A stretch of DNA of 64,000 nt from Pseudo-nitzschia pungens. Taxonomy: Eukaryota > Bacillariophyta > Bacillariophyceae > Bacillariales > Bacillariaceae. Below are positions 25,293 to 57,972 of the stretch, piece by piece. Below the pieces are notes generated by a model. That model did not search any database. It saw only the letters and a program-made list of their open reading frames with translations, and had not been told where the DNA came from. The stretch's first letter is position 1, and the number at the start of each line of letters is the position of its first letter. The position numbers and the translations under genes were made by a program. Location: the NCBI GenBank assembly GCA_037355855.1, contig CM074765.1, forward strand, positions 2,790,001 to 2,854,000, in the 5' to 3' direction.

Positions 25293-25334
25293 TAGCCGGC
25301 CAACCTTACTTAATTTCGGGCACCGGCCGTCGTT

Positions 25335-27332
25335 TCAGTTCTTGGGGGTCTGTCCTTGGTTCGAGCCGTTGCCCTTCTTCTTGTTCTTGTTCTTTCGGCG
25401 CCCCTTGGGCCCAAAACTGTTCCCTGCACCTTGGGTCGCATTCGAGTTCGCGGAGGCAGCAGGCGTGGTAGAACTAGTGGACTGAATAGTTCGAGCTTTC
25501 TTCTGCTGACGGAGGTCATACAACTGCTTTCGTTGTTCCTTGGAGAAGGTCTTGTAGACTTCATAGGGATAAGGTTTGTCCTCAATCTTGCCGCCGTACG
25601 ATCCACCCTTGTTGCTTCCCTGGTTGCCACCGCCACCACCACCTTGGTGTACAGAGGAGATACTTCGCGCTCGCTTGGTTGAGACCGCACCCATTTTTCG
25701 TATGCCAAGGCACCTCTTGAAGTACGAGACGCACTCATTGAAGTCCTTGGTGTACTTGTCGGTTTCAAAGATCTGGATCTTGGGGTTCTCAAACCGGTCG
25801 TCTTGGATGCTGTGGATGAAACGCATGGTGAAGTCCTCTTCGTCGTGCAACTTGTTGTGGTTGGAGAGCGTAGTCCGGAAATTCAACCAAGTTCTGCAGT
25901 GCTTCTCAAAGTCGTATGTTCGAGATTCCCCTGTGTAGCGGGAGGTGTACATGCCGGTACGGACCTTGTCAAGAATAGCCGCGACGTTGGTTGCAGAGAA
26001 GGCATTCTCGTAGAGATGTAGGAAAGCCGCCCGGGCGTTCCCAGTCGGATTCTTCGCGTCTTTGTACCTTCGAGTGTAGGCCCAGGCGGGGCCATCACGG
26101 ACTGCGTTGCAGAGCAACACCCAAACGTCATGGTTGTCGGTGACAAATTGCGGGCCTTCAAGCGTGGCGCATCGAACATTATAATCCATCCAGTTGGAAT
26201 ATGTCCCGTCCTTCCCAACAGTGGTGGACCTTTCTGCTGCAGTCACTGTCTCCTGCTCCCTCGGACGGATGACGTATGATAGGGGGAATCCTTGTTCATT
26301 GTACTGAAAGCGGAGGAACTGACGAAAGCTTTCTTCCCACTGACGGAAGTTGTCAAGGTTGACGAGCTTCGGCGGAGTAATGGACGCTGAGACGGCCTCC
26401 TTGTCGGCGGTCTGCATTTCATGCAGGCGCTGGCGCGTTCGGTCGGCTGCAAGGGGATCACTAAGCCAAGTATGGGCAGTAGGCTTGATACCAATGAGAG
26501 GTTGGTAGCGGATCCACTCCGAAAGAAGCTGGAAGGATTGTCTGAAGGATAGTCCGATAAATACTCGTTCATGGTAGGGGCACATCGGATGACGACCCCC
26601 ATTGAAGTCACGGAGGTACTTGGGGAGTTCCTTGGCAGAGAGCTGTTGGATCGCCTCGATGCTGTTGAGGCCATTCCGGAATAGTTCGTCCGCCGTATCA
26701 CTGTTGCTGAACCCAGAGAGGATCTTGTGGAGATCTAACTCCCTTGAGCTGAGCTTTGCTCCGTTCTTGTACCCAGAGATGCCTCCATTAGCTTGGGCTG
26801 TGGCATGGGCTTGGAGGATATCTGGACTAGCCCCTGCAGGTGCAGGAGCAGGAGCGGGAGCGGGAGCAGGAGCAGGGGCACGAGCAGCGGCGGCAGCAGC
26901 AGCAGCAGCAGCAGCTTCAGCAGCCACTCGAGCGGCAGCTTCAGCAGCCGCTCGGGCTGCGTTCTCATTGCGCATTGCTCTCAGTTCTTGAACAGCAGCA
27001 AGTAGGATCATCTCAGATCGAGGTTGGATGTCAAGGTTTGGTTCCTGTTGGACTCTGGAGGCTCCAGCAGGGGCAAAAGGAGGGATTTCAGGCGCTCCGA
27101 CAGGGGGAACACCGGCTCCAGGCGCTCCGACAGGGGGAACGCCGGCGACAGGGGGAACACCGGCTCCAGGCGCTCCGACAGGGGGAACGCCGACTCCATC
27201 GACGACTCCAGGGACAGCGCCTCCAGGGGCAGCGCCTCCAGGGACAGCGTCGCCTCCAGCTTCAGGGACGTTTCCAGCAGCGCCGGCTCCGGCAGCGGCT
27301 GCAGCGATTTGTCTTCTAGTTTGCTTGGCCAT
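25335..27332 (-). CDS. Copia gag
   Basis: 665 codons starting MAKQTRRQIAAAAAGAGAAG. The N-terminus has Gly/Pro/Val and (PA)n-type low-complexity repeats. Residues about 190-560 form the helical gag domain (KILSGFSNSDTADELFRNGL, RFLRFQYNEQGFPLSYVIRP). The C-terminus is basic and Gly-rich (KGRRKNKNKKKGNGSNQGQT) with no CCHC knuckle, so RNA binding may rely on this basic tail. The stop is TGA, and the pol frame continues in phase. Confidence 0.88.
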   Translation of the reverse strand: MAKQTRRQIAAAAAGAGAAGNVPEAGGDAVPGGAAPGGAVPGVVDGVGVPPVGAPGAGVPPVAGVPPVGAPGAGVPPVGAPEIPPFAPAGASRVQQEPNLDIQPRSEMILLAAVQELRAMRNENAARAAAEAAARVAAEAAAAAAAAAAARAPAPAPAPAPAPAPAGASPDILQAHATAQANGGISGYKNGAKLSSRELDLHKILSGFSNSDTADELFRNGLNSIEAIQQLSAKELPKYLRDFNGGRHPMCPYHERVFIGLSFRQSFQLLSEWIRYQPLIGIKPTAHTWLSDPLAADRTRQRLHEMQTADKEAVSASITPPKLVNLDNFRQWEESFRQFLRFQYNEQGFPLSYVIRPREQETVTAAERSTTVGKDGTYSNWMDYNVRCATLEGPQFVTDNHDVWVLLCNAVRDGPAWAYTRRYKDAKNPTGNARAAFLHLYENAFSATNVAAILDKVRTGMYTSRYTGESRTYDFEKHCRTWLNFRTTLSNHNKLHDEEDFTMRFIHSIQDDRFENPKIQIFETDKYTKDFNECVSYFKRCLGIRKMGAVSTKRARSISSVHQGGGGGGNQGSNKGGSYGGKIEDKPYPYEVYKTFSKEQRKQLYDLRQQKKARTIQSTSSTTPAASANSNATQGAGNSFGPKGRRKNKNKKKGNGSNQGQTPKN

Positions 27333-28291
27333 GGTTGACTTTGCTTGACTTGCTTTGAGTAACTAACTTGCTTCGGATTTCTAAACCAAATTCTTTTGTG
27401 GTGGGGACTGTCTCCATCCAAGTTGTCGATCGAAGGTTCGGGAGCTGTCTCCAATCGATGGTCCGCGTCGATTGTTCCGTACTCGTATCGACAGTGGGTT
27501 GTCGATTGTTCCGTGTCGACAATTCCGAAAGAAAAAGGTATCACGTATCACGTCAGCATTGGTGTCAACATTTTCGTGTTGACGTCTATCCACATCGATG
27601 GTTCCGATTCGATGGTTGGATGGTTGGTTACGACCAAAAAGAAGAATTCTATCTGGTCTTTCTACTCTGCTCTGGACCAATCGATTGATTCTGAGATATG
27701 ACAGATCTCAGGGTTCTTGGCTTGTCTGATTCCAAGTTCCCTTGGCTAAAAATCAAAAATTCGATGGTATAGCAGGTTCGAGGTTGTCTGCGCCTCGTTG
27801 AGGTTGTCTGCGCCTCATTTATGGATGGTCCTGACGTCATGTCCTTTGGTCTGCTGGATATGACTGTTCTCACTGGAGAGTACGTGGTGGTCCGTCTCCA
27901 CGAAAATTCCTTCTCCAGTGTGGTTCCATCCGTTGCAAGCAAGCGTCCCCCTTGAATCCTGTAAAATAACAGGGAATGATGGACGCTGCTTTCTCCACGT
28001 CCTGCGCCTTCCCCTACCGGATCGAGCCTCCATGGTGCCACCATGATGCTCGTCTACTGTATCAACAGGCCCCAGAGGTGGATGTGTGGGCTCCGGTCGG
28101 TCGCGTGTCTGGGGAAGGGCTCCCCATTAACATCAGGGATCTCGCGATGTCAGCTGCTGGTCCAGTTTTCAGCTGAGGTTTTACATCCAAGTGTAGGCAT
28201 GGATGCCAGTGGTGATCAGCCAGCTGGGTTTCATCACGCGCTCTAGCCGGCGTCCCGGTTCGTAGTGGGTCGAGCGGTGGGTCTGATAAAC
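27333..28291 (-). other. Copia leader between 5' LTR and gag
   Basis: About 960 bp without a supported gene. On the minus strand the first bases after the LTR (GTTTATCAGACC) share TATCAGA with the usual copia primer-binding site for initiator Met tRNA (TGGTATCAGAGC), so 28,280-28,291 is a possible but imperfect primer site. Confidence 0.5.
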
Positions 28292-29220: not shown

Positions 29221-29568
29221 AATTCTAACAGTTCCAGCAACAATCGAAAACGCTCTGGTCCTAACAACAAATCTAACCAGAACAAGAACAAGAAGAAATC
29301 CAATCCATGCCAAATCCAAGGGCACAACCATGATTGGTCCGAATGTCCTAAGAACAAGTTTTCAAAGAATTACAAGGGACCCGGCAACAACAACAAAAAC
29401 CACAATGCCAACTCCAACAATGAGACCTTCCACTCTCAGTGCCAAGAGGTCCCTGGAAGCAACGAGTCCTTCCAAGCTCACATGAAAGCAGCCATGGAAT
29501 CATATAATTCCGAACATGGAGGCCGAACGGAAAGGAGCATCGATGGTGAGCTTATTTGGCTCCCATGA
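29221..29568 (+). pseudogene. Gypsy A gag, part 3
   Basis: The C-terminal gag segment resumes with SNSSNNRKRSGPNNKSNQ. It contains the family nucleic-acid-binding motif C-x4-H-x-H-x4-C (PCQIQGHNHDWSECPKN) and ends SIDGELIWLP followed by TGA at 29,566-29,568. The next codons continue in frame into pol. Confidence 0.88.
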
Positions 29569-29582
29569 TTGCACAAGCAATC
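29566..29582 (+). promoter_or_regulatory. Gag-pol UGA hairpin (element A)
   Basis: TGATTGCACAAGCAATC holds a perfect 6-bp stem, GATTGC/GCAATC, with loop ACAA that starts at the G of the stop codon. The same sequence is at C, G and H; B has a compensated variant. It is a candidate recoding or other RNA element. Confidence 0.5.
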
Positions 29583-39893: not shown

Positions 39894-41273
39894 CTATGAA
39901 GGTTGGAAAAGCCCATTCAGCTGGTCATTGCATCTCCTGAGTACTCCATCATCACAAAGATTCTGGAGCTCCCTTTTGAATAGGTCTTCTTGCTTGTATG
40001 CAACTGGATAAGGCTTTTTGTGTATGGGCTTGGATCCGGGCTTCAGTCTTAGCGAGATCTTCTTGTGTGGATATTTTCCTAGTTCTCCATTGAAGACGTT
40101 CGGATATTTACTTAGTATTGCTTGGAATTGTTGTTGCTCTGCTGTTGACATGTGTGACTGTTGTTTGGCAACTGTGGATGGATTTGTTTCTTCGTAGGCT
40201 TGGTCTAGTATTAGCTTGGATTTGTATGGATTCGCGAAGGATAGTTCATCGGCAAAGAGTTCAGCATCTTCTAGTTCTTCCATGAGCATGGTATAGTTGT
40301 CATGGTATAAGGAGGTGTCCTTCATGGGAATGGTTCGATCCATCCACTGAACTGCTCCTTCTTTGAATAGGAGATTGATCTTTGCTAGGTGGAGGAAGTC
40401 TCTGCCTAGTATCAGATCATATCTGCAGTTGGGTGAATGGAAGAGCCTAGCCTCTTGCCGGTCGATGGTGTAGTTGCCAAACTCCTGTAGCTTGATGTTC
40501 TTCATGATAACATATTCTGTAGTATTGAAGCTTCCGTTGGCTGTCGTGGTTAGGACTTGATGCTTGCTTCGTATTGGTATGGTGCCAAATGGTAGTGCTC
40601 TCTTGTTGATTAGAGTTCCGGAAGATCCACTATCTAGTAGTGCTAGTAGTGGTCTTGATTTCATGTGGATGCCTTGTATATACTGTACGTTGGTTAGAAG
40701 AATAGGAGCCACGTTGCTTGTATTCTGAATAGGAGCCACGTTGCTCGTATTCTGAATAGGAGCCACGTTGCTCTTATTCATGGATGCCTGTTCTGCCGGA
40801 TTTCCAGCAGTCGACAGCAGCTTTAAATAAATTTGCTCCAGCGCACCTCCGTTGGTGTAGTCTTTGGAGTTTTGGGTATTGCAATAGAGATTTTTTGCTG
40901 TACCAGTAGACCAGTTCCTTGCCAGGGACAAGGTTGGTCCATTTATTGCTGCTGCCTTATTCGAATCGATAGTAATCGATGATGCGTAAGTACCCTTGGA
41001 TCGATTTGTTTGATTTCGATTCGGATCCATGTTCGGATTGCTCTGTGTGGAGAATCGAACTGTTTTTGTTGTTGCTGCTGTTGCAATCTTTGCTAAGCGC
41101 TCAACAGGACTCCATCCTGTAGGTTCCTTCCCCTCTTTATCTGGGAGATCTCCTCCATGCGCCATCCCAGTCAGCTGTGCTGGACTGGCATCCAGGGCCT
41201 GTGGCGCCGGAGGCAAGGTGATTGCTGGTTTTGGTGGACCCTTGGGTCTCTTGGTAGAGGATTGCTTGTGCAA
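39894..41273 (-). CDS. Element C pol, 5' part: linker and protease
   Basis: 459 codons in frame with gag behind the TGA at 41,274-41,276; the first codon is TTG. It contains the basic/Ser/Thr linker, the protease motif LLALLDSGSSGTLI and a repeated NVAPIQNTS unit (three near copies). The retropepsin-like segment GRDFLHLAKINLLF follows, and then the start of RT. The frame is lost near 39,925 (RRCNDQLNG where others read RCTGPAEWA). Confidence 0.85.
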   Translation of the reverse strand: MHKQSSTKRPKGPPKPAITLPPAPQALDASPAQLTGMAHGGDLPDKEGKEPTGWSPVERLAKIATAATTKTVRFSTQSNPNMDPNRNQTNRSKGTYASSITIDSNKAAAINGPTLSLARNWSTGTAKNLYCNTQNSKDYTNGGALEQIYLKLLSTAGNPAEQASMNKSNVAPIQNTSNVAPIQNTSNVAPILLTNVQYIQGIHMKSRPLLALLDSGSSGTLINKRALPFGTIPIRSKHQVLTTTANGSFNTTEYVIMKNIKLQEFGNYTIDRQEARLFHSPNCRYDLILGRDFLHLAKINLLFKEGAVQWMDRTIPMKDTSLYHDNYTMLMEELEDAELFADELSFANPYKSKLILDQAYEETNPSTVAKQQSHMSTAEQQQFQAILSKYPNVFNGELGKYPHKKISLRLKPGSKPIHKKPYPVAYKQEDLFKRELQNLCDDGVLRRCNDQLNGLFQPS

Positions 41274-41276
41274 TCA
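41261..41276 (-). promoter_or_regulatory. Gag-pol UGA hairpin (element C)
   Basis: On the minus strand it reads TGATTGCACAAGCAAT(C): the same stem and ACAA loop as in A, G and H, starting within the gag stop. Confidence 0.5.
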
Positions 41277-42752: not shown

Positions 42753-45551
42753 TGCATAACAAAGTATCTTATTGCCTTCTAATTCTTGATAGAAGAAGGC
42801 TCTGGATTGAATCTTGAATTGGATGGTAGAATCTTTTAACTGATGAAGATAGATATTGGAGAAGTTCACCGGGCATTCCATATCTTGGTTGTTTGGTAGA
42901 TTGACTAGACACTCATTGTTCAGCAGACAGGTTTGTAGGTCCTGGTCTGCGTCATTGCATAAGTGCTGGAATAAGTTGGGGAACTCTGCTAAGAACAGTT
43001 CTTCATCTTGTTTGGGGACTTCAAGTTTCAAAAAATCAATAAGAGTGCCCTTACGGAGGGCTTCTTTCTTCCCCACAGTAGGTGGATCCATCCGGGGGAG
43101 CCTGGAGAAGGCATCAGCAAGAACATTCTTCTTGCCTTCCACATAGGTGAGATTGACACCAAATTCTTCAAGGAATAGTCTCCATTGGAGGACTCGTTGG
43201 ACTGAAAGGGTTCAGAAGGTAAGGTTTTTATGGTCAGTGTATACATTGATAACACCACCAAGGAGCATTTTTCTGTACTCTTTGCAGCAGAGTACTATCA
43301 CTAGGAGTTCTTTCTCCATAGTAGTATAGTTCTTTTGGGCATCGGATAGTTTCTTGGACCAGTATGCAATGGGCTTGCCATCTTGTAGTATAGCAGCACC
43401 AAGCTGCAGGTCTGAGGCATCGGTATACAGTTCAAAGGGCTTGTTGAGGTCTGGATAGGTGTTCAGCGCATCCGCTGCCACCATTGCTTTCATCTCTTGA
43501 AAGGCTTTGTCTTGAGCAGGACCCCAAGTGAAAGCTGATGGAGCTTTCCTTTGTTTGCCTTTGATGGCAGCTGCTTGAGCCGTTTTCTTGGGGGTGCTGG
43601 TGATATCAAAGAGAGGAGCTAGGACATGGGACCTGCGAGGCCACATGTCTCTGTAGTATCCAACTGTTCCTAGAAAGGACTTGACTTGGGTCACAGTTCT
43701 TGGTCGATCCATGTGTAGGATTGCTTCAATCTTCTTTCTCCAAGGCTTAACTGTTGTAGGAGTCATCCAGTATCCAAGGAAGTCAGTTTCTTGTACAGCC
43801 CAATCACATTTGAGTGGGTTGCACTTGAGTCCATTTTGGTTGAGCCGGTCTAGGATCTTGTCGATGGTCTTCATGTGGAGGTCAAAGGATCCATTGGTCC
43901 ATATTCCAATATCTTCAATGTAGACAGTGCAGTCAGTGTCTTGTAGGATATCTTCCATAAGTTGTTGAGCAACATCCGGGGAGACTTTAACTCCCATTGG
44001 TAGTCTTTGGTATTCATAGCATCCATATGGAGTGACTATGGTACAGAGCTTCTTGCTTGCGTCATCCAGTTCAAAGCAATAGTATTGCATGGACAAGTCA
44101 ATCTTGGTGAAGTGAGTGTACTTGCCTCTCTTGTTCATGATGTCCTGTATTCTAGGGATTGGATAAGGACGTCTTTCAAGAAGTTCATTGAGTTCTCTGA
44201 AGTCTGATACCCATCTAACTCTGTTGTCTTTCTTTGGTACAATGAAAGTGGGAAATGCCCATTCAGCCGGTCCGATGCATCGTTTGAGTACTCCATCATT
44301 GCACAGATTCTGGAGCTCCCTTTTGAATAGGTCTTTTCTTTTGTATGCAACTGGATAAGGCTTCTTGTGTATGGGTTTGGATCCGGGCTTCAGTCGTAGA
44401 GAGATCTACTTGTGTGGATATTTCCCTAATTCTCCATTGAAGACATTAGGATACTTGCTGAGTATTGCTTGGAACTGCTGCTGCTCTGCTTTGGACATGT
44501 GGGACTGTTGCTGTGCGACTGTAGATGGATTTGTTTCTTGGTAGGCTCTGTCTAGGATTACTTTGGACTTGTATGGGTTTGCGAAGGATAGATCATCAGC
44601 AAAGAGTTCAGCATCTTCTAGTTCTTCCATGAGCATAGTGTGGTTTGCCACATGGTATATAGAGGTATCCTTCATGGGAATAGTTCTATCCATCCATTTT
44701 ACTGCTTCCTTGTCAAATAGGAGGTTGATCTTTGCTAGATGGAGGAAGTCTCTGCCTAGTATCAGATCATATCTGCAGTCGGGGGAATGGAAGAGCCTTG
44801 CTTCGTGTTTGTCAATGGTGTAGTTGCCAAACTCTTGTAGCTTGATGTTCTTCATGATGATATATTCAGTTGTATCAAAGCTGCCATTGGCTGTAGTGGT
44901 TAGGACTTGGTGCTTGCTTCTGATTGGTATTGTTCCGAATGGTAGTGCTCTTTTGTTGATTAGTGTTCCGGATCCACTATCTAGTAGTGCTAGTAGTGGT
45001 CTTGCTTTAAGTGGGATGCCTTGTATGTACTGTATGTTGGTTAGAAGAATAGGAGCCACGGTGCTCTTATTCGGGGATGCGTGTTCTGCTGTATTTCCAG
45101 CAGTCGGCAGCAGTTTTTAATAATTTTGCTCCAGCACACCTCCTTTGGTGTAGTCTTTGGAGTTTTTCGTATTGCAATAGAGATTTTTTGCTGTACCGGT
45201 AGACCAATTTCTTGCCAGGGACAAGGTTGGTCCATTTGTTACTGCTGTCTGATCGATTGAATTGATCCATGGTGCGTCTGTGCCCTTGGATTGATTTGCA
45301 TCCATGTTTGATTGTTTCTCTGTGGCAGAGAATTGAACTGTTTTTGTTGTTGCTGCGTTCGCAGTCTTTGCTGAGCGCTCAACAGGACTCCATCCTGTAG
45401 GTTCCTTCCCCTCTTTATCTGGGAGATCTCCTCCATGTGTCATCCCAGACAGCAGGGCTGTGCTGGCATCCAGTTCCTGGGGAGCTGGAGGCAAGGTGAT
45501 TGCTGGTTTTGGTGAAGCTCGGGGCTTCTTGTTAGGCTTGGAGCCTTGGAG
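42753..45551 (-). pseudogene. Element D pol, defective and truncated
   Basis: Pol of the same family runs from the gag stop to GNKILCYA, where element C begins; the rest of integrase is missing. Defects are a TAA near 45,119 (LEQNY*), TAG at 44,406-44,408 (PHK*), YIEDIG instead of YIDDIG at 43,911-43,922, loss of a Ser in the protease (DSGSGT), and TGA at 43,212-43,214 in RNase H (LTF*TLS). The frame is otherwise open from 44,405 to 42,753. About 44,855-43,880 is almost identical to element A. Confidence 0.85.
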
Positions 45552-46259
45552 TCAGGGGAGCCAGACAAGTTCCCCATCGATGCTCCTTTTGGTTCGGCCA
45601 CCATGTTCTGAATGGTATGATTCCATTGCTGCTTTCATGTGGGCCTGGAAGGACTCATTGCTTCCGGAAACAAGTTGAGCTTGGGTGTGGAAGGTTTCCC
45701 TTGTCTTGGTATGAGGGCTCTTGTTGTAGTTCTTAGAGAACTTGTTCTTGGGACACTCAGACCAATCATGGTGATGTCCCGGAATTCGACAGGGATTGGA
45801 CTTCTTCTTGTTACTGTTGCTCTTGTTGTGTGCATTTGTTGTTGTTGTTGTTGCCGGAGCTGTTGTTTGAGCGTTTGTTTTGGGTCTTGCTATTCTTGTT
45901 GCTCTTTTTGTTAGCTTGGTGCTCGTGGCAGCTCATGTGGTCAACTATGAATTGTACAGTAGTGTCCGCATATATCCCATTGTGGATCATGCCGTAGTGT
46001 TTGATCCATGTTGAGGGAAAGGAGTGTAATAGAATGGTGAGCTTTTCCACTCTGGATAGAGGAGCACTGCTCCCTTCTAGTTTTGCCGTGTATTGTATTA
46101 GGATTGTAATCCGATCGGCGTGTTCTTTACATGTCATTGCTGGTGTCTTCCTGCAATTGTTGCTTTGGAGATAAGTGTGCATGATGTCCCTGGCATCCCG
46201 GGCATTGCAGTAGAACTTGGTAAAGTCCAAAATCGCTTGTTCGTATCCTCTGATCTCTT
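45552..46259 (-). pseudogene. Element D gag, 3' part
   Basis: Gag from EIRGYEQAILDFTKFYCNAR through CKEHADRITILIQYTAKLEG and QFIVDHMSCHEHQ. A frameshift near 45,820 precedes PCRIPGHHHDWSECPKN. It ends ELVWLP-TGA (45,552-45,554). The hairpin bases after the stop are not conserved here. Its upstream codons continue at 52,175-52,214 beyond the solo LTR. It is closer to the gag of E (DPLDPDESQYEE region) than to that of C. Confidence 0.8.
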
Positions 46260-46359: not shown

Positions 46360-46620
46360 TGTGACATGCTAGCGTAGCGAGCATGAATCACGATTAAATA
46401 ATTAACCGAATCCCACATACGAGCTGACCGGTGTTTGAATACAAATATTCAAACTGTACGCCGGACGCTCCAGCAATGCATGTGTGCCGATATTCAAACA
46501 ATAGTTAGGCACGCTCGTGTGTATTCAAACGGTCACACGAAAACTGAAACTCTCTCTTAAGAGTTAACGATTAGTCACAATTTTCATACTACTCCTAATT
46601 TTCTACCTTAGAGTGTAACA
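46360..46620 (+). repeat. 5' LTR of element B
   Basis: 261 bp, TGTGACATGC...GTGTAACA. The palindrome pair follows at 46,620-46,633 and 46,662-46,671. Confidence 0.95.
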
Positions 46621-46761
46621 CAGTAATTACTGTTTATCTTCAATGTAGAAAACAGTAGAATTCAGTACTGAACGAAACAATTAATCAAGTAAAACATCGA
46701 AATCCCTTATCCTCAACAAGAGAGGTACCTTGTATCCCTGACAAGCAGCAACACCTCCACC

Positions 46762-47784
46762 ATGGCAGGAATATACAGAGAACCACCGATTGCCTACAAG
46801 AGCTCCTTTGACAGCTCAAAGCCCAAGCTTGTAACCCTATCAGCCTACGATTCCGACAACCACTCAGACAGCGTCAAAGTCCCGTTATTCACAGACAAAG
46901 GGGGACTAGAAGAACTCCTCCATACTGAAGAGGCCTTCCTGAATGCAGCAGAAGATCTATCCATTCCAGATACCTCTCTAATCTGTTACTTCAGTCGATG
47001 CTTGTGCGTCAACGCGCAGACCAAGTGGCGAACATTAACCAGAGCGACTCGCGCCAACCATCAGCGTGTCTATCCCCTTACCAAGGATGGATACAAATCA
47101 GCTTTTCAAGCCTTCATCAAGTTATACTGCAATGCCGAAGATGCCAGAGACATCATGCATGTCTATCTACGGAGCAGCGCATGCAAGAAGAAGATTGAAT
47201 CCACCTGCAAGGACCACACCGATCGGCTCATGACCTTAATCAAGTATTCAGCTAAGCTACATGGTTTCGCATCCAACCTGGACCACCTGCAGACGCTCAC
47301 TATCCTCCTACACAGCTACCCCAACAGCTGGATCGAAGACTACGTTCGAATCCATCTAAAGCTTACTCCGGAAACTACATCTCAGTTTATCGTAGACCAC
47401 ATGAGCAGCCTGGACCGACTTAGCAAGCAGAAAAACAACAAGACAAACAATGGGCGCCGCGCAAACAACTCCAACAGCGCTAACAACAATCGAAAACGCT
47501 CAGGCCCCAATAACAAGTCTCATCAGAACAGAAACAAGAAGAAATCCAATCCATGCCGGATACCAGGCCACAATCATGACTGGTCTGAATGCCCGAAGAA
47601 CAAATTCTCCAAGCAGCACAAGGGATCTAACAACAGCAATCGATCCCCCACTACAACACCGACAAACGAGTCTTTCCAAGCTTGTATCCAAGCCGCAATG
47701 AACTCTGCCATGGAAACCTTCCATAATGAACATGGTGGCTGCACTGAAAGAAGCATCGATGGAGACCTAGTATGGCTCCCATGA
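46762..47784 (+). CDS. Element B gag
   Basis: An intact 340-codon gag from ATG in accATGg context (MAGIYREPPIAYKSSFDSSK). It carries the same blocks as the C gag, the PCRIPGHNHDWSECPKN motif and ends GDLVWLP-TGA. Pol follows with no gap in the same frame. The TGA lies in a variant hairpin, GAGTGC-ACCA-GCACTC. Confidence 0.92.
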   Translation: MAGIYREPPIAYKSSFDSSKPKLVTLSAYDSDNHSDSVKVPLFTDKGGLEELLHTEEAFLNAAEDLSIPDTSLICYFSRCLCVNAQTKWRTLTRATRANHQRVYPLTKDGYKSAFQAFIKLYCNAEDARDIMHVYLRSSACKKKIESTCKDHTDRLMTLIKYSAKLHGFASNLDHLQTLTILLHSYPNSWIEDYVRIHLKLTPETTSQFIVDHMSSLDRLSKQKNNKTNNGRRANNSNSANNNRKRSGPNNKSHQNRNKKKSNPCRIPGHNHDWSECPKNKFSKQHKGSNNSNRSPTTTPTNESFQACIQAAMNSAMETFHNEHGGCTERSIDGDLVWLP

Positions 47785-47798
47785 GTGCACCAGCACTC
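47782..47798 (+). promoter_or_regulatory. Gag-pol UGA hairpin (element B, compensated variant)
   Basis: TGAGTGCACCAGCACTC keeps the 6-bp stem of A/C/G/H although a T-A pair is replaced by G-C and the loop changes from ACAA to ACCA. Both stem changes alter the encoded residue, so pairing is kept and coding is not. Confidence 0.55.
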
Positions 47799-50700
47799 TT
47801 CCAAGAGGCCCAAGGGCCCACCTAAACCAGCAATCACCATGCCTCCGGCGCCACAGGCCCTGGATGCCAGTACAGCACAGCTGTCTGGGATGACGCATGG
47901 AGGAGATCTCCCGGAGAAAGAGGGGAAGGAACCTACAGGATGGAGTATTCCTGTTGAGCGCTTAGCAAAGACTGCAACAGCAGCACCAGAATCTGCTACA
48001 ACAGCAGCGAAAACAATCGTTCGGAACATCCTACAGGATATATCGAACTCGGATCTGACTCGAACATCGAATCGATCCAAGGGTACAGACGCAATCGATC
48101 AGACAGCAGCAACAAATGGACCACTCTTGTCCCTAGCAAGGAATTGGTCCACTGGTACAGCAAAAAACCTCTATTGCAACACCAAAAACTCCAAAGACTA
48201 CACCAAAGGAGGTGCGCTGGAGCAAAATTATTTAAAGCTGCTGTCGACTGCTGGAAATACAGCAGAACAGCCATCACCGAATAAGAGCAACGTGGCTCCT
48301 ATTCTTTTAACTACGGTACAGTACATACAAGGCATACCCCTCAAAGCAAGACCACTACTAGCACTCCTAGATAGTGGATCCTCCGGAACTCTAATCAACA
48401 AAAGAGCACTACCGTTTGGAACAATACCACTCCGAAGCAAACATCAAGTGGTAACTACGACAGCAAATGGAAGCTTCGATACTACGGAATACGTCATCAT
48501 GAAGAACATCAAGCTACAAGAGTTTGGTAACTATACCATCGACCAACAACAGGCAAGACTCTTCCATTCCCCCAACTGCAAATATGATTTAATACTAGGC
48601 AGAGACTTTCTCCACCTAGCACAGATCAATCTCCTATTCAAAGAAGGAGCAGTTCAGTGGATGGATCGAACCATTCCTATGAAGGACACCTCTTTATACC
48701 ATGACAACCATACCATGCTCATGGAAGAACTAGAAGACGCCAAACTCTTTGCTGATGATCTCTCGTTTGCGAATCCATACAAGTCCAAGGTTATACTCGA
48801 CAGAGCCTACCAAGAAACAGATCCATCTACAGTTGCCAAGCAACAGTCCCACATGTCCACAGCAGAACAACAACAGTTTCAAGCAATACTAAGCAAGTAT
48901 CCGAATGTCTTCAACTGCAAATTAGGGAAATATCCACACAAGAAGATCTCCCTAAGACTCAAGCCCGGATCCAAGCCCATACACAAGAAGCCCTATCCAG
49001 TGGCATACAAACGAGAAGACCTATTCAAAAGGGAGCTCCAGAATCTTTGTAATGATGGAGTACTCAAGCGTTGCACTGGACCGGCCGAATGGGCATTTCC
49101 AACCTTTATAGTACCAAAAAAAGATAACAGGGTACGATGGGTATCAGACTTCAGGGAACTAAACGAACTCCTTGAAAGAAGACCTTATCCCATACCAAGG
49201 ATACAAGACATCATGAACAAGCATGGCAAGTACACCCACTTCACCAAGATTGACTTGTCCATGCAATACTACTGCTTTGAACTAGATGACGCAAGCAAAA
49301 AGCTTTGTACCATAGTAACGCCGTATGGTTGCTATGAATACCAAAGACTACCAATGGGCGTCAAAGTCTCTCCAGACGTTGCCCAGCAACTAATGGAAGA
49401 TATCCTACAAGACATGGACTGCACTGTTTATATTGATGATATTGGGATCTGGACCAATGGCCCCTTCAACCTCCACATGAAGACCATAGACAAGATACTG
49501 AACCGGCTCAACCAAAATGGACTTAAATGCAACCCACTCAAGTGTGACTGGGCTGTACAAGAAACTGATTTCCTTGGATACTGGATGACACCTACAGCAG
49601 TCAAGCCATGGAGGAAAAAGATTGAAGCCATCCTACATATGGATCGGCCGAGAACTGTGACCCAAGTCAAGTCCTTTCTAGGAGCAGTTGGATACTACAG
49701 AGACATGTGGCCCTGGAGATCTCATGTCCTAGCTCCTCTCTTTGATATCACCGGGACCCCCAAGACTCCTCAAGCAGCTGCCATCAAAGGCAAGCAGCGA
49801 AAAGCCCCCTCAGCTTTCACGTGGGGTCCTGCTCAAGACAAGGCCTTCCAAGAGATGAAAGCAATGGTGGCAGCAGATGCGCTGAACACCTATCCAGACC
49901 TCAACAAGCCCTTTGAACTGTACACTGATGCCTCAGACCTACAGCTTGGCGCAGCCATCATACAAGACGGCAAACCAATAGCCTACTGGTCCAAGAAACT
50001 ATCTGACGCCCAGAAGAATTATACAACCATGGAGAAAGAACTCCTAGCAATAGTACTCTGTTGCAAAGAGTACCGCAAAATGTTACTTGGTGGTGTTATC
50101 AACGTATACACTGACCATAAGAACCTTACTTTCCGAACCCTCTCCGTCCAGCGAGTCCTCCGGTGGAGACTATTCCTAGAAGAATTTGGTGTCAACCTCA
50201 CTTATGTTGAAGGCAAGAAGAACGTTCTTGCCGATGCCTTCTCCAGACTGCCCAGGATGGATCCACCTACTGTGGGGAAGAAAGAAGCCCTTGGTAAGGG
50301 CACTCTAATTGATTTTCTGAACCTTCAAGTTCCCAAGCAAGATGAAGAACTGTTCCTAAGCGAGTTCCCAAACCTATTCCAGCACTTATGCAATGACGCA
50401 GACCAAGAGTTACAAGCCTGCCTGCTGAACAATGAGTGCCTAGTCAACCTCCCTAACACGACAGACATGGAATGCCCGGTTAACTACAATAAGATATACC
50501 TCCATCAGCAAAAGGACCCGACTGTCAAGTTCAAGATTCAATCCAAGGCATTCTTTTACCAAGAATTACAGGGCAATAACATCCTATGCTACGCCAACCA
50601 ATCCAATCCAGATAATTGGAGAATTTACATACCAAGCTCTCTCACGAATGATACCATCAAATGGTATCATCTCCTGTTGGGTCATTGTGGATCCACCAGG

Positions 50701-51669
50701 TTATATAAGACCATCTCTGCTTGATTCTATGCAGACAACCTGTCCAATCTATGCAAGTCCTACATCTTCCTGGACAATTGCGTCCAATACAAGAGCAGGC
50801 AAGCCAAATATGGCATGCTTCCTCCCAAAGAAGCGCCAGTATCCCCCTTCGATGAAGTCCATGTTGATCTCATAGGCTCCTGGAAGATCACAGCCCAAAA
50901 CAAGACCTATAACTTCAAGGCGCTAACGTGTATCGATCCAGTCACCAACCTACTCGAAATCATCCGGATCAGGGACAAATCTTCTCAGCATGTCTCTGAT
51001 CAATTCAAGAACTGCTGGCTCTCAAGATATCCCAGACCAAACAGATGCATCCATGATAATGGTGGTGAGTTCCTAGGGGCTGAATTCCAACTCACTCTCA
51101 AGCAGTACGGAGTCCAATCAGTCCCCACCACTGTGAAGAATCCACAAGCCAATGCTATATGCGAGCGGGTACATCATACAGTGGCTGATATCCTGCGAGT
51201 CCTAGTACATGTCAATCCTCCACAAGCAAACGCCAAAGTTACTCAGCTCATGGACAACGCCCTATCAACATGCATGCATGCCTCCAGGTGCGCTGTCAGT
51301 ACCTCCTTACAAGCATCCCCTGGTTCCCTGGTATTCAACAGGGACATGATGATAGATTTACCATTAACCTCCAATCTATTAGCCCTCAAGCAGCTTCGAC
51401 AACAAGGCATCAACAAAGCCCTGCTCAGGGACAACTCGAAGAGAGTCGCGCACACCTTCCAAGTCAATGACAAGGTATGGTTACAAGAACCGGATCCGGA
51501 CAAGCTACAGCCACGAAGAACCGGACCCTTCCTTATTCTGCAGGTTAATGACAATGGTACAGTGAAACTGCAGAAAGCCCCTTCAATAGCCGAAACAGTG
51601 AACATCCGAAAGCTAACCCCTTACAGAGAACCAGAATCGGAGTCTACGGCTATTCATTGGGCATCGTAA
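47785..51669 (+). CDS. Element B pol (PR-RT-RNase H-INT) with one internal TGA
   Basis: 1,294 codons in frame with gag. Protease LLALLDSGSSGTLI lies near residue 190, with RT blocks and TVYIDDIGIW near 545. RNase H has [14 protein letters not shown] and TTMEKELLAIVL near 710-760. Integrase has the HLLLGHCGSTRL zinc region, HVDLIGSW, CIHDNGGEF and NAICERVHH. The only break is TGA at 50,722-50,724 (TISA*FYADN), where C has CGG and G has CGA, a typical CpG transition. The frame is open again to 51,669. Otherwise the element looks competent. Confidence 0.92.
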
Positions 51670-51693
51670 GATTCGTTTAATCATGAGGCACTA

Positions 51694-51954
51694 TGTGACA
51701 TGCTAGCGTAGCGAGCATGAATCACGATTAAATAATTAACCCAATCCCACATACGAGCTGACCGGTGTTTGAATACAAATATTCAAACTGTACGCCGGAC
51801 GCTCCAGCAATGCATGTGTGCCGATATTCAAACAATAGTTAGGCACGCTCGTGTGTATTCAAACGGTCACACGAAAACTGAAACTCTCTTTTAAGAGTTA
51901 ACGATTAGTCACAATTTTCATACTACTCCTAATTTTCTACCTTAGAGTGTAACA
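51694..51954 (+). repeat. 3' LTR of element B
   Basis: 261 bp direct repeat of the 5' LTR, preceded by GAGGCACTA and followed by CGGAC. Confidence 0.95.
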
Positions 51955-52174
51955 CGGACATCCGGTATATATGAACAGACATACAGAAGAGAGCGATCAT
52001 ACGATTAAGGTTACATACAGAATATATGTTATATACAGGGATGCAGATTATATAAAGAGATCGCGATGACCTCATCGCTCATTATTTCCTCTCTTTAATT
52101 TCAATCCCATCTCGTAAAGTGAAATAACACACAATTATTCATACTACTCCGAATTTCTACCTTAGAGTGTTACA

Positions 52175-52214
52175 CTCTTCTTCTTCATACTGGAGATTGT
52201 CTGGATTGAGTGGG
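52175..52214 (-). pseudogene. Element D gag, short upstream piece
   Basis: The minus strand encodes DPLNPDNLQYEEE, matching DPLDPDESQYEE in the E gag and joining the D gag across solo LTR S. It ends at an inverted junction with the gag of G near 52,209-52,215. Confidence 0.6.
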
Positions 52215-52725
52215 TCTTCAGCAAGTCACCATCCTCCTCCACAGCTACCCGAATGCTTGGATCGAAGACTACGTACGCATTCACCAGGGAGTTACTCAGA
52301 ACACCACACCTCAATTTATTGTCGACCACATGAGCAGCCTCGACAGGCTCAGCAAACAGAAGAATAAGAACAACGGGAGACGTCCTAACAGTTCTAATCC
52401 TTCAAACAACAACAACAAGAAACGTTCCGGCAACCAAAAGAACAATCCTAAGAACAAGAAGAAGTCCAACCCTTGTCGAATTCCAGGCCATAACCATGAT
52501 TGGTCTGAATGCCCTAAGAATAGGTACTCCAAGAACTACAAGGGGCCCGGCAACAAGGCCCATGGCACCAACACCAACGAGACCTTCCATTCTCACACTC
52601 ATGACCTTTCAGGTAGCAATGAGTCATTCCAAGCCCACATGAAAGCAGCAATGGAATCCTACCATGAAGAACATGGCGGACGAACAGAAAGGAGCATCGA
52701 TGGTGAGCTTGTTTGGCTCCCATGA
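52215..52725 (+). pseudogene. Element G gag, 5'-truncated
   Basis: The open gag C-terminal half starts at LQQVTILLHSYPNAW. It runs through SLDRLSKQKNKNNGRRPN and PCRIPGHNHDWSECPKN to GELVWLP-TGA (52,723-52,725). The N-terminal half, leader and 5' LTR are absent because the sequence switches to inverted element D upstream. Confidence 0.88.
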
Positions 52726-52739
52726 TTGCACAAGCAATC
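52723..52739 (+). promoter_or_regulatory. Gag-pol UGA hairpin (element G)
   Basis: TGATTGCACAAGCAATC, as in A, C and H. Confidence 0.5.
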
Positions 52740-55700
52740 CTCCAAAAAGAGACCCAAGGGTCCACCAAAACCAGCAATCACCTTGCCTCCGGCGCCACAG
52801 GCCCTGGATGCCAGCACAGCACAGCTGACTGGGATGACGCAAGGAGGAGATCTCCCGGAGAAAGAGGGGAAGGAACCTACAGGATGGAGTATTCCTGTTG
52901 AGCGCTCAGCAACGACTGCAACAGCAGCAACAAAAACAGTTCGATTCTCCGAAAAGAGCAATACGAACATGGATCCGAATCGCATACCGAATCGATCCAA
53001 GGGTACAGACGCATCATCGATTAACATCGATCAGAATAAGACAGCAGCAATAAATGGACCAACCTTGTCTCTAGCAAGAAATTGGTCCACAGGTACAGCC
53101 AAAAATCTCTATTGCAATACCCAAAACTCCAAAGACTACACCAAAGGAGGTGCGCTGGAGCAAAATTATTTAAAGCTGCTGTCGACTACTGGAAATCCAG
53201 TAGAACAGGCATCCCCGAATAAGAGCAACGTGGCTCCTATTCTTTTAACCACAGTACAGTACATACAAGGCATCCCCATGAAAACAAGACCACTACTAGT
53301 ACTACTAGATAGCGGATCCTCCGGAACTCTAATTAACAAGAGAGCACTACCATTCGCCACTATACCGATTCGAAGCAAGCACCAAGTCCTAACAACTACA
53401 GCGAATGGAAGCTTCGATACTACAGAATACATCATCATGAAGAACCTCAAGCTACAAGAGTTCGGCAACTACACCATAGACCAACAAGAGGCAAGGCTCT
53501 TCCATTCCCCTAACTGCAGATACGATTTGATACTAGGCAGAGACTTTCTCCACCTGGCACAGATCAATCTCCTATTCAAAGAAGGAGCAGTTCAGTGGAT
53601 GGATCGAACCATTCCCATGAAGGACACCTCCTTATACCATGACAACTATACCATGCTCATGGAAGAACTAGAAGATGCTGAACTCTTTGCCGATGAACTA
53701 TCCTTCGCGAATCCATACAAATCCAAGCTAATACTAGACCGAGCCTACGAAGAAACAAATCCATCCACAGTTGCCAAACAACAGTCACACATGTCAACAG
53801 CAGAGCAACAACAATTCCAAGCAATACTAAGTAAATATCCGAACGTCTTTAATGGAGAACTAGGGAAATATCCACACAAGAAGATCTCTCTGAGACTGAA
53901 GCCCGGATCCAAGCCCATACACAAGAAGCCTTATCCAGTTGCATACAAAAGAGAAGACCTATTCAAAAGGGAGCTCCAGAATCTCTGTAACGATGGAGTA
54001 CTCAAGCGTTGCACTGGACCGGCCGAATGGGCATTCCCTACTTTTATTGTTCCAAAGAAGGACAACAGGGTACGATGGGTATCAGACTTCAGAGAACTGA
54101 ATGAACTCCTTGAGAGACGCCCTTATCCAATCCCCCGGATACAAGATATCATGAACAAACGAGGCAAGTACACTCACTTCACCAAGATTGACTTGTCTAT
54201 GCAATACTACTGCTTTGAACTGGATGATGCGAGCAAGAAACTCTGTACCATAGTAATGCCATATGGCTGCTATGAATATCAAAGACTCCCAATGGGCGTC
54301 AAAGTCTCCCCAGATGTTGCCCAGCAACTAATGGAAGATATCCTACAAGACACTGACTGCACTGTTTATATTGATGATATTGGGATCTGGACTAATGGCT
54401 CCTTTGATCTACATATGAAGACCATCGACAAGATCCTAGACCGGCTCAATCAAAATGGGCTCAAGTGCAACCCACTCAAATGCGACTGGGCTGTACAAGA
54501 GACTGATTTCCTTGGATACTGGATGACTCCTACAGCAGTTAAGCCATGGAGAAAGAAGATAGATGCAATCCTACAAATGGACCGACCAAGAACTGTGACC
54601 CAAGTCAAGTCCTTTCTTGGAGCAGTAGGATACTACAGAGATATGTGGCCTCGCAGATCTCACATCCTAGCTCCTTTATTTGACATAACAGGGACCCCCA
54701 AAACTCCCCAAGCAGCTGCCATCAAAGGCAAACAAAGAAAAGCTCCCTCAGCCTTCACCTGGGGACCTGCTCAAGACAAAGCCTTTCAAGAGATGAAAGC
54801 AATGGTGGCAGCGGATGCGCTAAACACTTATCCAGACTTAAACAAGCCCTTTGAACTGTACACTGATGCCTCAGACCTACAGCTAGGCGCTGCCATAATA
54901 CAAGATGGTAAGCCTATTGCATATTGGTCCAAGAAACTATCTGATGCCCAAAAGAACTATACAACCATGGAAAAAGAACTCCTAGCAATCGTACTCTGTT
55001 GCAAAGAATACAGAAAAATGCTCCTCGGTGGTGTTATCAATGTATACACTGACCATAAAAACCTTACCTTCCGAACATTATCAGTCCAACGAGTCCTCCG
55101 ATGGAGATTATTCCTAGAAGAATTCGGTGTCAACCTAACCTATGTGGAAGGCAAGAAGAATGTTCTTGCTGACGCCTTCTCCAGGCTCCCCCGGATGGAC
55201 CCACCTACTGTGGGGAAGAAAGAAGCCCTTGGTAAGGGCACTCTTATTGATTTCTTGAACCTTGAAGTCCCGAAGCACGATGAAGAACTGTTTTTAGCAG
55301 ATTTCCCCAATCCATTCCAGCACTTATGCAATGACGCAGATCAAGAACTACAAGCTTGCCTGCTGAACAATGAATGCCTAGTCAACCTACCAAATTCCCT
55401 TGACTTGGAATGCCCAGTCAACTTCTCCAATATATATCTTCATCAGCTGAAAGACTCCACCATACAATTCAAGATTCAATCCAAAGCCTTCTTTTATCAA
55501 GAATTAGAAGGCAACAAGATACTTTGTTACGCCAACCAAGCCAACCCAGACAGCTGGAAAATATACCTTCCTAGATCACTTACAGATGATACCATACGAT
55601 GGTACCATCTCCTCTTGGGTCATTGTGGATCCAAGAGGCTTTATCAAACTATAACAAACCGATTCTATGCAGATAACCTCGACGTGAAATGCAAATCCTA

Positions 55701-56619
55701 CATTTGCCCCGACAATTGCATCCAATACAAGAACCTACAATCCAAATATGGCAAATTACCACCTAAGGAAGCACCACTATCCCCATTCCACGAAGTACAT
55801 GTGGATCTAATCGGCCCTTGGAAGATCTCAGCTCAAGGCAAGAACTACAATTTCAAGGCCCTAACTTGCATTGATCCAGTCACAAATCTTCTTGAAATCA
55901 TCAGAATCAGAGACAAATCATCTCAACATGTATCAGATCAATTTAAAAACTGCTGGCTCTCAAGATACCCAAGACCCATCAGATGTGTTCATGACAATGG
56001 CGGCGAATTCCTAGGAGCTGAGTTCCAGACCACTCTTAAACAGTATGGAATTCAGTCCATTCCAACCACAGTCAAGAACCCGCAATCTAATGCTATTTGC
56101 GAGCGAGTCCATCATACAGTCGCTGATATCCTACGAGTCCTTGTACATGTTAATCCTCCACAAGCAAATACCAGGGCTAGTCAACTCATGGATAATGCCC
56201 TCTCGACTTGCATGCATGCCTCCAGATGCGCTGTCAATGCTGCCTTACAGGCATCCCCTGGATCCCTTGTGTTCAACCGGGATATGCTGATCGACCTACC
56301 ACTAACTGCTAACCTGTTGGCGCTACAACAGCTAAGACAGCAGGGCATTAACAAGGCTCTACTCAGAGATAATGCCAAGCGCAAGGAGCATACCTTCCAA
56401 CCCAACGAGAAGGTATGGATGCAAGAACCGGACCCAGACAAACTACAGCCAAGAAAAACAGGACCATTCATCATTGCTCAGGTACATGATAATGGGACTG
56501 TTAAAATTCAGAAGACTCCATCGATTGTTGAGACAGTTAACATCCGAAAGCTAACTCCATACAGGGAACCAACGCCCGTTGACCAATACGAACCTACAAC
56601 AATTCACTGGTCGGCTTAA
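52726..56619 (+). CDS. Element G pol, uninterrupted (PR-RT-RNase H-INT)
   Basis: 1,297 codons without a break, directly after the gag TGA and in its frame; the first codon is TTG, so there is no own ATG start. Domains by position: linker 1-180; protease LLVLLDSGSSGTLI near 190; RT about 400-600 with TVYIDDIGIW near 548; RNase H about 705-830 ([25 protein letters not shown]). Integrase spans about 955-1,170 (GHCGSKRL, CKSYICPDNC, HVDLIGPW near 1,025, VHDNGGEF near 1,088, NAICERVHH near 1,125). The C-terminal domain ends TTIHWSA and has no chromodomain I can see. All catalytic residues are kept. It could serve other copies in trans only if transcribed, since its 5' LTR is lost. Confidence 0.94.
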   Translation: MHKQSSKKRPKGPPKPAITLPPAPQALDASTAQLTGMTQGGDLPEKEGKEPTGWSIPVERSATTATAATKTVRFSEKSNTNMDPNRIPNRSKGTDASSINIDQNKTAAINGPTLSLARNWSTGTAKNLYCNTQNSKDYTKGGALEQNYLKLLSTTGNPVEQASPNKSNVAPILLTTVQYIQGIPMKTRPLLVLLDSGSSGTLINKRALPFATIPIRSKHQVLTTTANGSFDTTEYIIMKNLKLQEFGNYTIDQQEARLFHSPNCRYDLILGRDFLHLAQINLLFKEGAVQWMDRTIPMKDTSLYHDNYTMLMEELEDAELFADELSFANPYKSKLILDRAYEETNPSTVAKQQSHMSTAEQQQFQAILSKYPNVFNGELGKYPHKKISLRLKPGSKPIHKKPYPVAYKREDLFKRELQNLCNDGVLKRCTGPAEWAFPTFIVPKKDNRVRWVSDFRELNELLERRPYPIPRIQDIMNKRGKYTHFTKIDLSMQYYCFELDDASKKLCTIVMPYGCYEYQRLPMGVKVSPDVAQQLMEDILQDTDCTVYIDDIGIWTNGSFDLHMKTIDKILDRLNQNGLKCNPLKCDWAVQETDFLGYWMTPTAVKPWRKKIDAILQMDRPRTVTQVKSFLGAVGYYRDMWPRRSHILAPLFDITGTPKTPQAAAIKGKQRKAPSAFTWGPAQDKAFQEMKAMVAADALNTYPDLNKPFELYTDASDLQLGAAIIQDGKPIAYWSKKLSDAQKNYTTMEKELLAIVLCCKEYRKMLLGGVINVYTDHKNLTFRTLSVQRVLRWRLFLEEFGVNLTYVEGKKNVLADAFSRLPRMDPPTVGKKEALGKGTLIDFLNLEVPKHDEELFLADFPNPFQHLCNDADQELQACLLNNECLVNLPNSLDLECPVNFSNIYLHQLKDSTIQFKIQSKAFFYQELEGNKILCYANQANPDSWKIYLPRSLTDDTIRWYHLLLGHCGSKRLYQTITNRFYADNLDVKCKSYICPDNCIQYKNLQSKYGKLPPKEAPLSPFHEVHVDLIGPWKISAQGKNYNFKALTCIDPVTNLLEIIRIRDKSSQHVSDQFKNCWLSRYPRPIRCVHDNGGEFLGAEFQTTLKQYGIQSIPTTVKNPQSNAICERVHHTVADILRVLVHVNPPQANTRASQLMDNALSTCMHASRCAVNAALQASPGSLVFNRDMLIDLPLTANLLALQQLRQQGINKALLRDNAKRKEHTFQPNEKVWMQEPDPDKLQPRKTGPFIIAQVHDNGTVKIQKTPSIVETVNIRKLTPYREPTPVDQYEPTTIHWSA

Positions 56620-56942: not shown

Positions 56943-57958
56943 ACAAGAGCTCCTTCGACAGCTCCAAACCCAAGCTAGTCACCCTATCGGTCTACAACGC
57001 CGAGGATCACTCAGACAGTGTCAAGATCCCCTTGTTCACTGATAAAGGGGGATTAGAAGAATTGCTCCACACCGAAGAAGCGTTTCTAAACGCTGCAGAA
57101 GACCTATCCATACCGGACTCAGACCTCATGCGGTACTTCGGTCGGTGCCTATGCGCCGACGCTCAGATGAAGTGGAGAACACTAACATGAGCAACTCGCG
57201 CCAACAACCACCGACTCTATCCACTAACCCGAGACGGATACACCTCAGCCTTCCAGGCATTTATCAAGCTCTACTGCAACGCTGAAGATGCTAGAGACAT
57301 CATGCACGTCTATTTACGAAGTGGTGCCTGCAAGAAAAAGATCGAATCCACGTGCAAGGACCACACTGATCGCATCATGACCTTAATCAAATACTCCACC
57401 AAGCTACATGGATTCGCCGCCAACCTGGACCACCTGCAAACACTAACCATTCTTCTCCACAGCTATCCCAACAGCTGGATCGAAGACTATGTCCGAATCC
57501 ATCTTAAACTTACCCCGGAGACAACATCGCAGTTTATTGTGGACCACATGAGCAGTCTCGATCGGCTCAGCAAACAAAACAAGAACACCAACAAAACTAA
57601 TGGAAGACGTTCGAACAATTCCAACCCGTGCAAACGCTCCGGTCCCAATAACAACAAAGCCAACCAAAACAAAAAGAAATCCAACCCATGTCGGATCCAG
57701 GGACATAACCATGATTGGTCCGAATGCCCGAAGAACAAAATCTCCAAGAATTACTCCAAGGGCCCCAACAACAAGACCAATCACAGCACCTCTAACACTG
57801 AAACATTCTACTCTCAGTGCCATGAGATCCCCGGCAGCAATGAATCCTTCCAAGCCCACATCAATGCGGCACGCGAGGCTGCCATTGAAGAATATCATGC
57901 CAATCATGGTGGAAGAACAGAAAGGAGCATCGATGGGGACCTAGTCTGGCTCCCATGA
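56943..57958 (+). pseudogene. Element H gag, lacking its first codons
   Basis: The frame starts at KSSFDSSKPKLVTLSVYNAE directly after the G LTR; about 12 N-terminal codons are missing. A TGA at 57,188-57,190 (RTLT*ATRANN) stands where C has CGA. After it the frame is open through RDIMHVYLRSGACKKK and PCRIQGHNHDWSECPKN to GDLVWLP-TGA (57,956-57,958). Confidence 0.88.
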
Positions 57959-57972
57959 TTGCACAAGCAATC
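57956..57972 (+). promoter_or_regulatory. Gag-pol UGA hairpin (element H)
   Basis: TGATTGCACAAGCAATC, identical to A, C and G. Confidence 0.5.

Follow-up and report, generated by a model that had tools for sequence, protein, structure and literature searches.

A 64,000-nucleotide stretch of the genome of the diatom Pseudo-nitzschia pungens (assembly GCA_037355855.1, contig CM074765.1, positions 2,790,001 to 2,854,000 of the forward strand), referred to here as the window, carries six copies (A, B, C, D, G and H) of a large family of Ty3/gypsy retrotransposons whose gag and pol genes are separated by a UGA stop codon. A sequence-only reading of the window had placed a TGA between gag and pol in all six, and all are found where it put them, as are the perfect stem of 6 base pairs (bp) it described at A, C, G and H and the altered stem at B. 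It is likely that this junction is a site of programmed UGA readthrough, raised by RNA structure on its 3' side. The first hairpin comes in three classes: T1 (GAUUGC/GCAAUC) and T2 (GAGUGC/GCACUC), in both of which the stem, H1, includes the stop, and T3, in which the hairpin begins a few nucleotides (nt) past it. Further structures (H2, P3, H3, H4 and H5) follow. The features of the window copies, including the long terminal repeats (LTRs) of copy B, are as follows.

46360 to 46621, plus strand: copy B, 5' LTR, 99.2% identical to the 3' LTR (LTR comparison)
51694 to 51955, plus strand: copy B, 3' LTR (LTR comparison)
46693 to 47781, plus strand: copy B, gag reading frame (stop to stop) with the C-terminus IDG..WLP
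47782 to 47784, plus strand: copy B, gag stop UGA, with pol in the same frame
47785 to 50724, plus strand: copy B, pol reading frame, closed by a second in-frame stop at 50722-50724
47783 to 47798, plus strand: copy B, H1, stop-overlapping (T2 type), 6 bp with a 4-nt loop
47807 to 47818, plus strand: copy B, H2 (GGCC-CAAG-GGCC)
47837 to 47900, plus strand: copy B, P3, with arms 47837-47842 and 47895-47900 that enclose H3 and H4
47845 to 47863, plus strand: copy B, hairpin H3
47867 to 47888, plus strand: copy B, hairpin H4
47935 to 47954, plus strand: copy B, H5 (ACAGGA/UCCUGU)
29566 to 29582, plus strand: copy A, UGA and H1 of T1 type (sequence match)
41260 to 41276, minus strand: copy C, UGA and H1 of T1 type
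45534 to 45554, minus strand: copy D, UGA (45554-45552) and a T3-type hairpin (45546-45534)
52723 to 52739, plus strand: copy G, UGA and H1 of T1 type, with pol open over 52726-56619
57956 to 57972, plus strand: copy H, UGA and H1 of T1 type

The pol of copy G, searched against Pfam in three pieces, has protease, reverse transcriptase (RT), RNase H and integrase in the order of Ty3/gypsy (Metaviridae) elements; the integrase core scores 30.2 bits, just below its cut-off of 32.6, and the integrase zinc domain lies above its own. LTRs were mapped for copy B and are 262 bp each; the pol of this copy has the additional in-frame stop. Pfam gives no match for its Gag at E 0.01, but the protein has 16 relatives, the readable labels of which include one from Pseudo-nitzschia pungens and one marked Psemu1, which we take to be P. 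multiseries. A search with pol returned RT relatives, the best of which (P0017) begins at the methionine of the motif MTHGG and is uninformative on the stop, and nothing was found in the viral contigs searched. One other protein of the window has a Zn-cluster match (24.8 bits, cut-off 21), and a search with it gave one partial match. A fungal host, to which the Zn-cluster match might have pointed, was discounted because the named Gag relatives come from Pseudo-nitzschia and because the genome has the selenocysteine tRNA.

The C-terminal motif of Gag, IDG..WLP, was picked independently of both the stop and the stem, and was sought throughout the 66.9-Mb, 28-contig genome that includes the window. 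TGA comes next in 341/344 exact matches, a figure that covers only the group in which this motif is present. The three other cases have TA, TC or TT (two) or TGC, TGG or TGT (one), with none having a first base other than T; two of them pass into unrelated sequence and one, L110, has a changed stop but retains a hairpin arm downstream. Allowing up to one mismatch in the motif gives 362 places. The enriched set analysed here consists of the first 100 motif places (contigs 1 and 2), 40 from three BLAST lists, places from 17-mer and motif searches and the six window copies, with three places entered twice (L001/L017, L002/L037 and L003/L073) and those that are not TGA (L026 and L109, which are one place, L110 and L111) left out. 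A downstream motif, KPAIT, is retained in 151 of the 153 TGA copies, and the removal of L009 and L130, which have no downstream anchor, leaves 151 for analysis.

The distance from the UGA to KPAIT takes seven lengths, from 11 to 20 codons, yet the gag frame is kept in 151/151 copies, which bears out the earlier claim that pol continues in the frame of gag. Among 131 distinct segments from the UGA to MTHGG, 2 have a stop in the pol frame, compared with 59 and 55 for the two remaining frames. The UGA is therefore kept as UGA and the reading frame is locked across it. Splicing across the UGA was considered as a route around it and rejected, as within 100 nt upstream no GT reaches 90% of the copies (the best is in 68%) and a conserved donor is thus absent from that stretch.

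The hairpin that overlaps the stop is not a peculiarity of the window. With up to three mismatches the stop-stem sequence has 5 matches in the window, compared with means of 0.28 and 0.21 in shuffled sequence, and the 17-mer shared by these four perfect copies, A, C, G and H, has 34 occurrences genome-wide, compared with 0 for its reversed control. T1 and T2 account for 69 of the 151 copies (two odd ones included), with the stem having all six pairs in 63 and five in the other 6. The third pair is U-A in 40, G-C in 27, A-U in 1 and G-U in 1, and on a tree made from the flanks only, with the hairpin excluded, all five changes on its 5' side fall on branches that also have a change on the 3' side. 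The compensatory change reported for copy B is one of these five double changes. Of the roughly 12,700 column pairs in an all-pairs phylogenetic test of T1 and T2 together, the third pair comes top, with an E of 0.175; the evidence for it is stronger than this value, because the pair had been named from the sequence beforehand. An alternative long-range partner for T1 (UGAUUGC/GCAAUCA) is favoured by RNAalifold with a pair probability of about 0.76, but T2 breaks this pairing and restores the local stem, which is why the local stem is preferred.

It could be argued that such stems are the by-product of a conserved peptide or of recent common descent, as the copies are related and recombination could shift the 17-nt block whole, mimicking double changes. 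Some of the changes at the third pair could indeed be block recombination, yet L132 and L135 each have an A-U pair, at pairs 3 and 4 respectively, that is a new combination and occurs in a single copy. Against a by-product there is also the excess of loop changes over stem changes in H1 of T1 and T2 (31 at 4 loop sites compared with 20 at 12 stem sites), the independent covariation of the different stems of T3, and the weakening of the fold by shuffles of synonymous codons that preserve the peptide. Over the 48 nt from the UGA such shuffles give p<=0.05 for 22/28 T1, 22/22 T2 and 57/63 T3, and for 2/8 of the others. A by-product is therefore very improbable. The first hairpins are selected as RNA, and the suggestion to this effect in the earlier reading is upheld by both the compensatory changes and the codon shuffles.

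T1 and T2 are not the commonest arrangement. In the sample taken by position, the first 100 places, there are 64 T3, 20 T1, 8 T2, 6 with no clear hairpin and 2 that are unusable, so the statement that the structure includes the stop holds for T1 and T2 (28/100 by position, 69/151 in the enriched set) and fails for the commonest class, the hairpin of which lies at a conventional distance. The first paired nucleotide of T3 is 9-13 from the U of the UGA, that is 5-9 nt past the UGA, in 65/70 scored copies. Copy D belongs here; it had been described as defective, with a TGA but no stem, and whilst the TGA is kept, the copy is not stem-less, having a T3-type hairpin at nt 9-21 from the U. The stems of T3 were chosen by a GGC...GCC pattern, which 12/82 copies did not match, and therefore just the inner and outer pairs are informative. 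At the inner pair there are 7 double changes, all but one of them from one standard pair to another, and outside the pattern pair -1 has two and pair -2 five, each gaining or losing a G-C pair. The T3 hairpin thus covaries independently of T1 and T2.

Downstream of the first hairpin lies H2, at about nt 22-33, the sequence of which differs between groups (GACC/GGUC, GGCC/GGCC, GGGC/GCCC and GAAGCC/GGCUUC). For scoring, the longest stem in the 25 nt preceding AAACCA was taken, with a minimum of 4 bp, and by this rule H2 is found in 142/151 copies, a count without a control in which a chance 4-bp stem is possible; the codon-shuffle test alone covers H2. P3, H3, H4 and H5 come next, with one pair of P3 usually a U-U mismatch in T3. 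In a shuffle scan of 40 copies the UGA window is the strongest (32/40), with 29 at +48, 29 at +240 and 24 at +480, and among 180-nt windows, compared in 16 copies, none has a lower energy than the junction (-59.7), for which the mean z is -2.1 and 10/16 are significant.

A further signal is seen in the synonymous sites. In comparisons among 57 distinct copies whose frames are open, the fraction of four-fold sites that differ is 0.41-0.62 throughout gag, 0.004-0.25 in the first 165 codons past the UGA and 0.19-0.41 thereafter, whilst the amino-acid difference stays within the gag range as the synonymous difference falls. Taken by themselves, T1 (12 copies) and T3 (37) each show this step too. 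The drop starts abruptly at the UGA and extends for about 500 nt (in copy B from 47785 to about 48280), and a zone of nearly frozen synonymous sites that starts at a stop codon is unexpected. An overlapping second reading frame does not account for the freeze, as each of the five other frames is stopped in at least 93/105 copies in some 60-nt bin. Neither recombination nor gene conversion would seem enough by itself, as the amino-acid differences stay at the gag level. Separately, copy B has a 174-aa antisense open frame across the junction (47574-48098, minus strand), and of the three antisense frames two are free of stops for the first 120 nt past KPAIT in at least 101/105 copies and closed further on.

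A contrast to the UGA group is provided by related elements, found by a search with the Gag of a relative (P0006), the C-terminus of which continues via a sense codon where the other Gags end. A likeness by eye of the peptide after the UGA to P0006 was not confirmed by BLASTP. Twenty pieces (L172-L191) were hand-picked among the 108 matches listed, and 19 were measured, L183 having no anchor. In these gag ends in WQP followed by UAG (15) or UAA (2), or reads on through a sense codon (2), and the pol frame offsets of 0, 1 and 2 are found in 4, 4 and 11, so that 15/19 are out of frame; by the same comparison 148/151 of the UGA group are in frame. Over the 48 nt from the stop the mean minimum free energy (MFE) is -3.2 kcal/mol in this group compared with -13.2 kcal/mol in the UGA group. 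The locked frame and the strong structure next to the stop thus accompany the UGA. Copies in which a sense codon takes the place of the stop or pol lies in another frame, which the sequence-only reading had counted against its idea, are therefore to be found, but in the related group and also without strong structure there, and as they sit in a structure-poor relative they limit rather than refute the idea.

H3 and H4 are kept in 20/20 of the contrast pieces (140/140 cells for H3 and 178/180 for H4), and with this group included stem pairs take ranks 1, 2 and 4 among the column pairs for covariation in the H3/H4 region (E 0.10, 0.36 and 1.5), the third being loop to loop (E 0.45), with 1.56 changes in paired columns compared with 4.92 in unpaired ones. 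As H3 and H4 are also present in the UAG group they are not specific to readthrough and serve something shared. This raises the prospect that the hairpins belong to a signal for RNA packaging, dimerisation or reverse transcription which extends over the beginning of pol, with a readthrough that needs no structure. Such a signal would suit a synonymous constraint that runs some 500 nt past the UGA, well beyond the usual recoding signal, and a stretch that holds the 10-nt palindrome GGAGATCTCC, but would leave unexplained why the synonymous drop starts at the UGA itself and why strong structure adjoining the stop is tied to the UGA and the lock and is absent from all 19 measured copies of the UAG group. 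We consider it rather unlikely. For dimerisation by the stop-overlapping hairpin, which the earlier reading had offered as a function, there is no support, since by inspection alone the common loops ACAA and AACA are not self-complementary.

Programmed readthrough is the simplest account because the UGA is kept, the frame is locked and structure lies on the 3' side. Most ribosomes would end at the gag UGA to give Gag, and a minority would decode it as an amino acid, probably by means of a near-cognate tRNA, to give Gag-Pol, with RNA folded directly past the UGA, the first hairpin and then H2, presumably raising the fraction that reads through. Structure at 5-9 nt past the stop is found in T3, as in known readthrough signals, and in T1 and T2 the stop itself is overlapped. 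With the UGA in the A site, the hairpin of T1 and T2 is inside the ribosome. As it would then be open, H2 and the structure beyond it would have to act. H1 of these classes may set the order of folding, although this is a guess. An HIV-1 pseudoknot that contains the slippery site is described as refolding after unwinding (PMC3835772), and by analogy something similar might conceivably occur in T1 and T2.

A number of observations weigh against this account. The stop-overlapping hairpin is real yet cannot act as a classical roadblock, as at its distance it should fail as one, and with nt 1-13 hidden the MFE pairing begins at nt 22 or later, that is with H2, in 18/40 T1 and 20/27 T2, the rest beginning earlier. 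The all-pairs covariation test is underpowered, its best pair in T1 and T2 together standing at an E of 0.175, and for T3 it puts non-stem columns on top, with the best stem pair at an E of 8.6. There is no clear first hairpin in 6/98 usable copies of the position sample, and the base at +4 varies among the copies. H3 and H4 persist where the frame is unlocked. Other 180-nt windows are significant in 13/16 copies at +180, 10 at +270, 9 at +360 and 10 at +720, with a mean z of -2.3 to -2.8; these pol windows score as well as the junction or better, and the structure is therefore not confined to it. Lastly, 139/150 copies retain an in-frame AUG at the site of MTHGG, which would suit reinitiation.

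Reinitiation deserves to be weighed in its own right, with termination at the UGA followed by a restart at the conserved AUG some 37 codons on, the hairpins holding or recycling ribosomes and no fusion being made. The earlier reading had stated that no ATG follows the TGA, which does not hold, as the first in-frame Met is at codon 35-39 past the UGA in 122/150 copies; no restart AUG was seen at or adjoining the stop among the in-frame AUGs scored. Structure is located between stop and AUG, as this explanation would have it, and the UAG group, being mostly out of frame, needs another route in any case. Reinitiation does not need a lock, however, and the frame is held in every copy at seven UGA-to-KPAIT lengths ahead of the AUG; the pol frame runs open directly from the UGA in 129/131 segments; and the stop is UGA in nearly every motif match. 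We regard it as improbable.

The UGA might instead encode selenocysteine, in which case the hairpin would behave much as a selenocysteine redefinition element does. The genome has six loci for the selenocysteine tRNA (tRNA-Sec) above the cut-off (77.6 bits, cut-off 47), with 19 more matches below it; the model is above the cut-off in 5/14 control genomes, and to our knowledge this tRNA is absent from most fungi. It would also fit that the stop is retained as UGA and is not UAA or UAG, and that the T3 hairpin is a few nt downstream. However, the residue would fall in a variable linker, and no selenocysteine insertion sequence (SECIS) family is among the Rfam matches in the window (at gathering score), in its 47-64 kb region (E up to 5) or in the 3' end and LTR of copy B (E up to 10), although a divergent SECIS may escape Rfam. 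This explanation is barely credible. The six tRNA-Sec loci lie at 2371879-2372342 of contig 10 and elsewhere, four of them in a tandem array with a 126-nt spacing.

If the UGA group does use readthrough, then the UAG group poses a different problem, as its frames are unlocked and most of the measured copies therefore need a route besides simple in-frame readthrough. We tentatively suggest, with more doubt than confidence, that one lineage in one genome has switched its gag-pol coupling. The UGA group would have a locked frame and covarying stop hairpins in two geometries, stop-overlapping and spaced, whilst the UAG/UAA group would keep H3 and H4 without the frame and obtain pol in some other way, for example by internal entry, bypass or reinitiation. 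In that case the hairpin over the stop would count as a recoding signal whose action is not that of a roadblock at the mRNA entry.

Readthrough of a gag-pol stop is known from murine leukaemia virus (MLV), Tca2 and Tj1, and what would be new is the variant described here. MLV has, like the elements described here, an in-frame stop between gag and pol with structure a few nt past it, as in T3, its stop-to-structure spacing being 8 nt; it differs from them in that they have UGA and simple hairpins, and in T1 and T2 a hairpin that includes the stop. Tca2 of Candida albicans is a Ty1/copia element. The MLV signal is a UAG with a purine-rich spacer and a pseudoknot (PMC2194720; PMC3835772), and that of Tca2 a gag-UGA-pol junction with an 8-nt purine-rich spacer and a possible pseudoknot, the junction sequence alone giving no readthrough in S. 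cerevisiae (PMC2194720). Among Ty3/gypsy elements, Tj1, Tosmo1-3 and Tcry1 of fission yeasts have an in-frame TGA between gag and pol within a strictly conserved 8-nt stretch, GAA-TGA plus CT, with no structure at the stop described in the accessible text (PMC10085805), whereas here the bases after the UGA vary and the structure is kept. The geometry of T3 resembles the spacer of Tca2 (PMC2194720) and the stem-loop of Drosophila dfr, a cellular gene with a UAG, which has a stem-loop at about +10 to +58 whose distance and stability count and whose sequence does not (PMC13170385); T3 fits this distance rule and T1 and T2 do not. The GyDi elements are also diatom Ty3/gypsy elements, most of the selected LTR elements having one or no stop codon or frameshift between gag and pol, and no readthrough signal is described in the available part of that paper (PMC2806351). 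The Gag relatives from Pseudo-nitzschia suggest that the present family may belong to GyDi. Our search of the openly accessible literature, subscription papers being outside its scope, showed no report of gag-pol readthrough in diatom retrotransposons.

A second retrotransposon in the window has a similar feature. A copia-type element (RVT_2) at 20781-27362 on the minus strand has an in-frame TGA at 25335-25337 (minus) between an upstream frame and pol, which is kept in the window copy and in 20/20 further copies sampled from 39 others listed, and by eye a GCCGG/CCGGC stem could begin about 7 nt past it.

The family described here offers upwards of 340 natural variants of the same readthrough-like signal, all within one genome, with the contrasts already built in, namely two positions of the hairpin and a UAG group that is without the lock or the strong structure at the stop. 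Whether it is the distance, the stability or the sequence of a 3' structure that matters in readthrough is directly testable with these variants.

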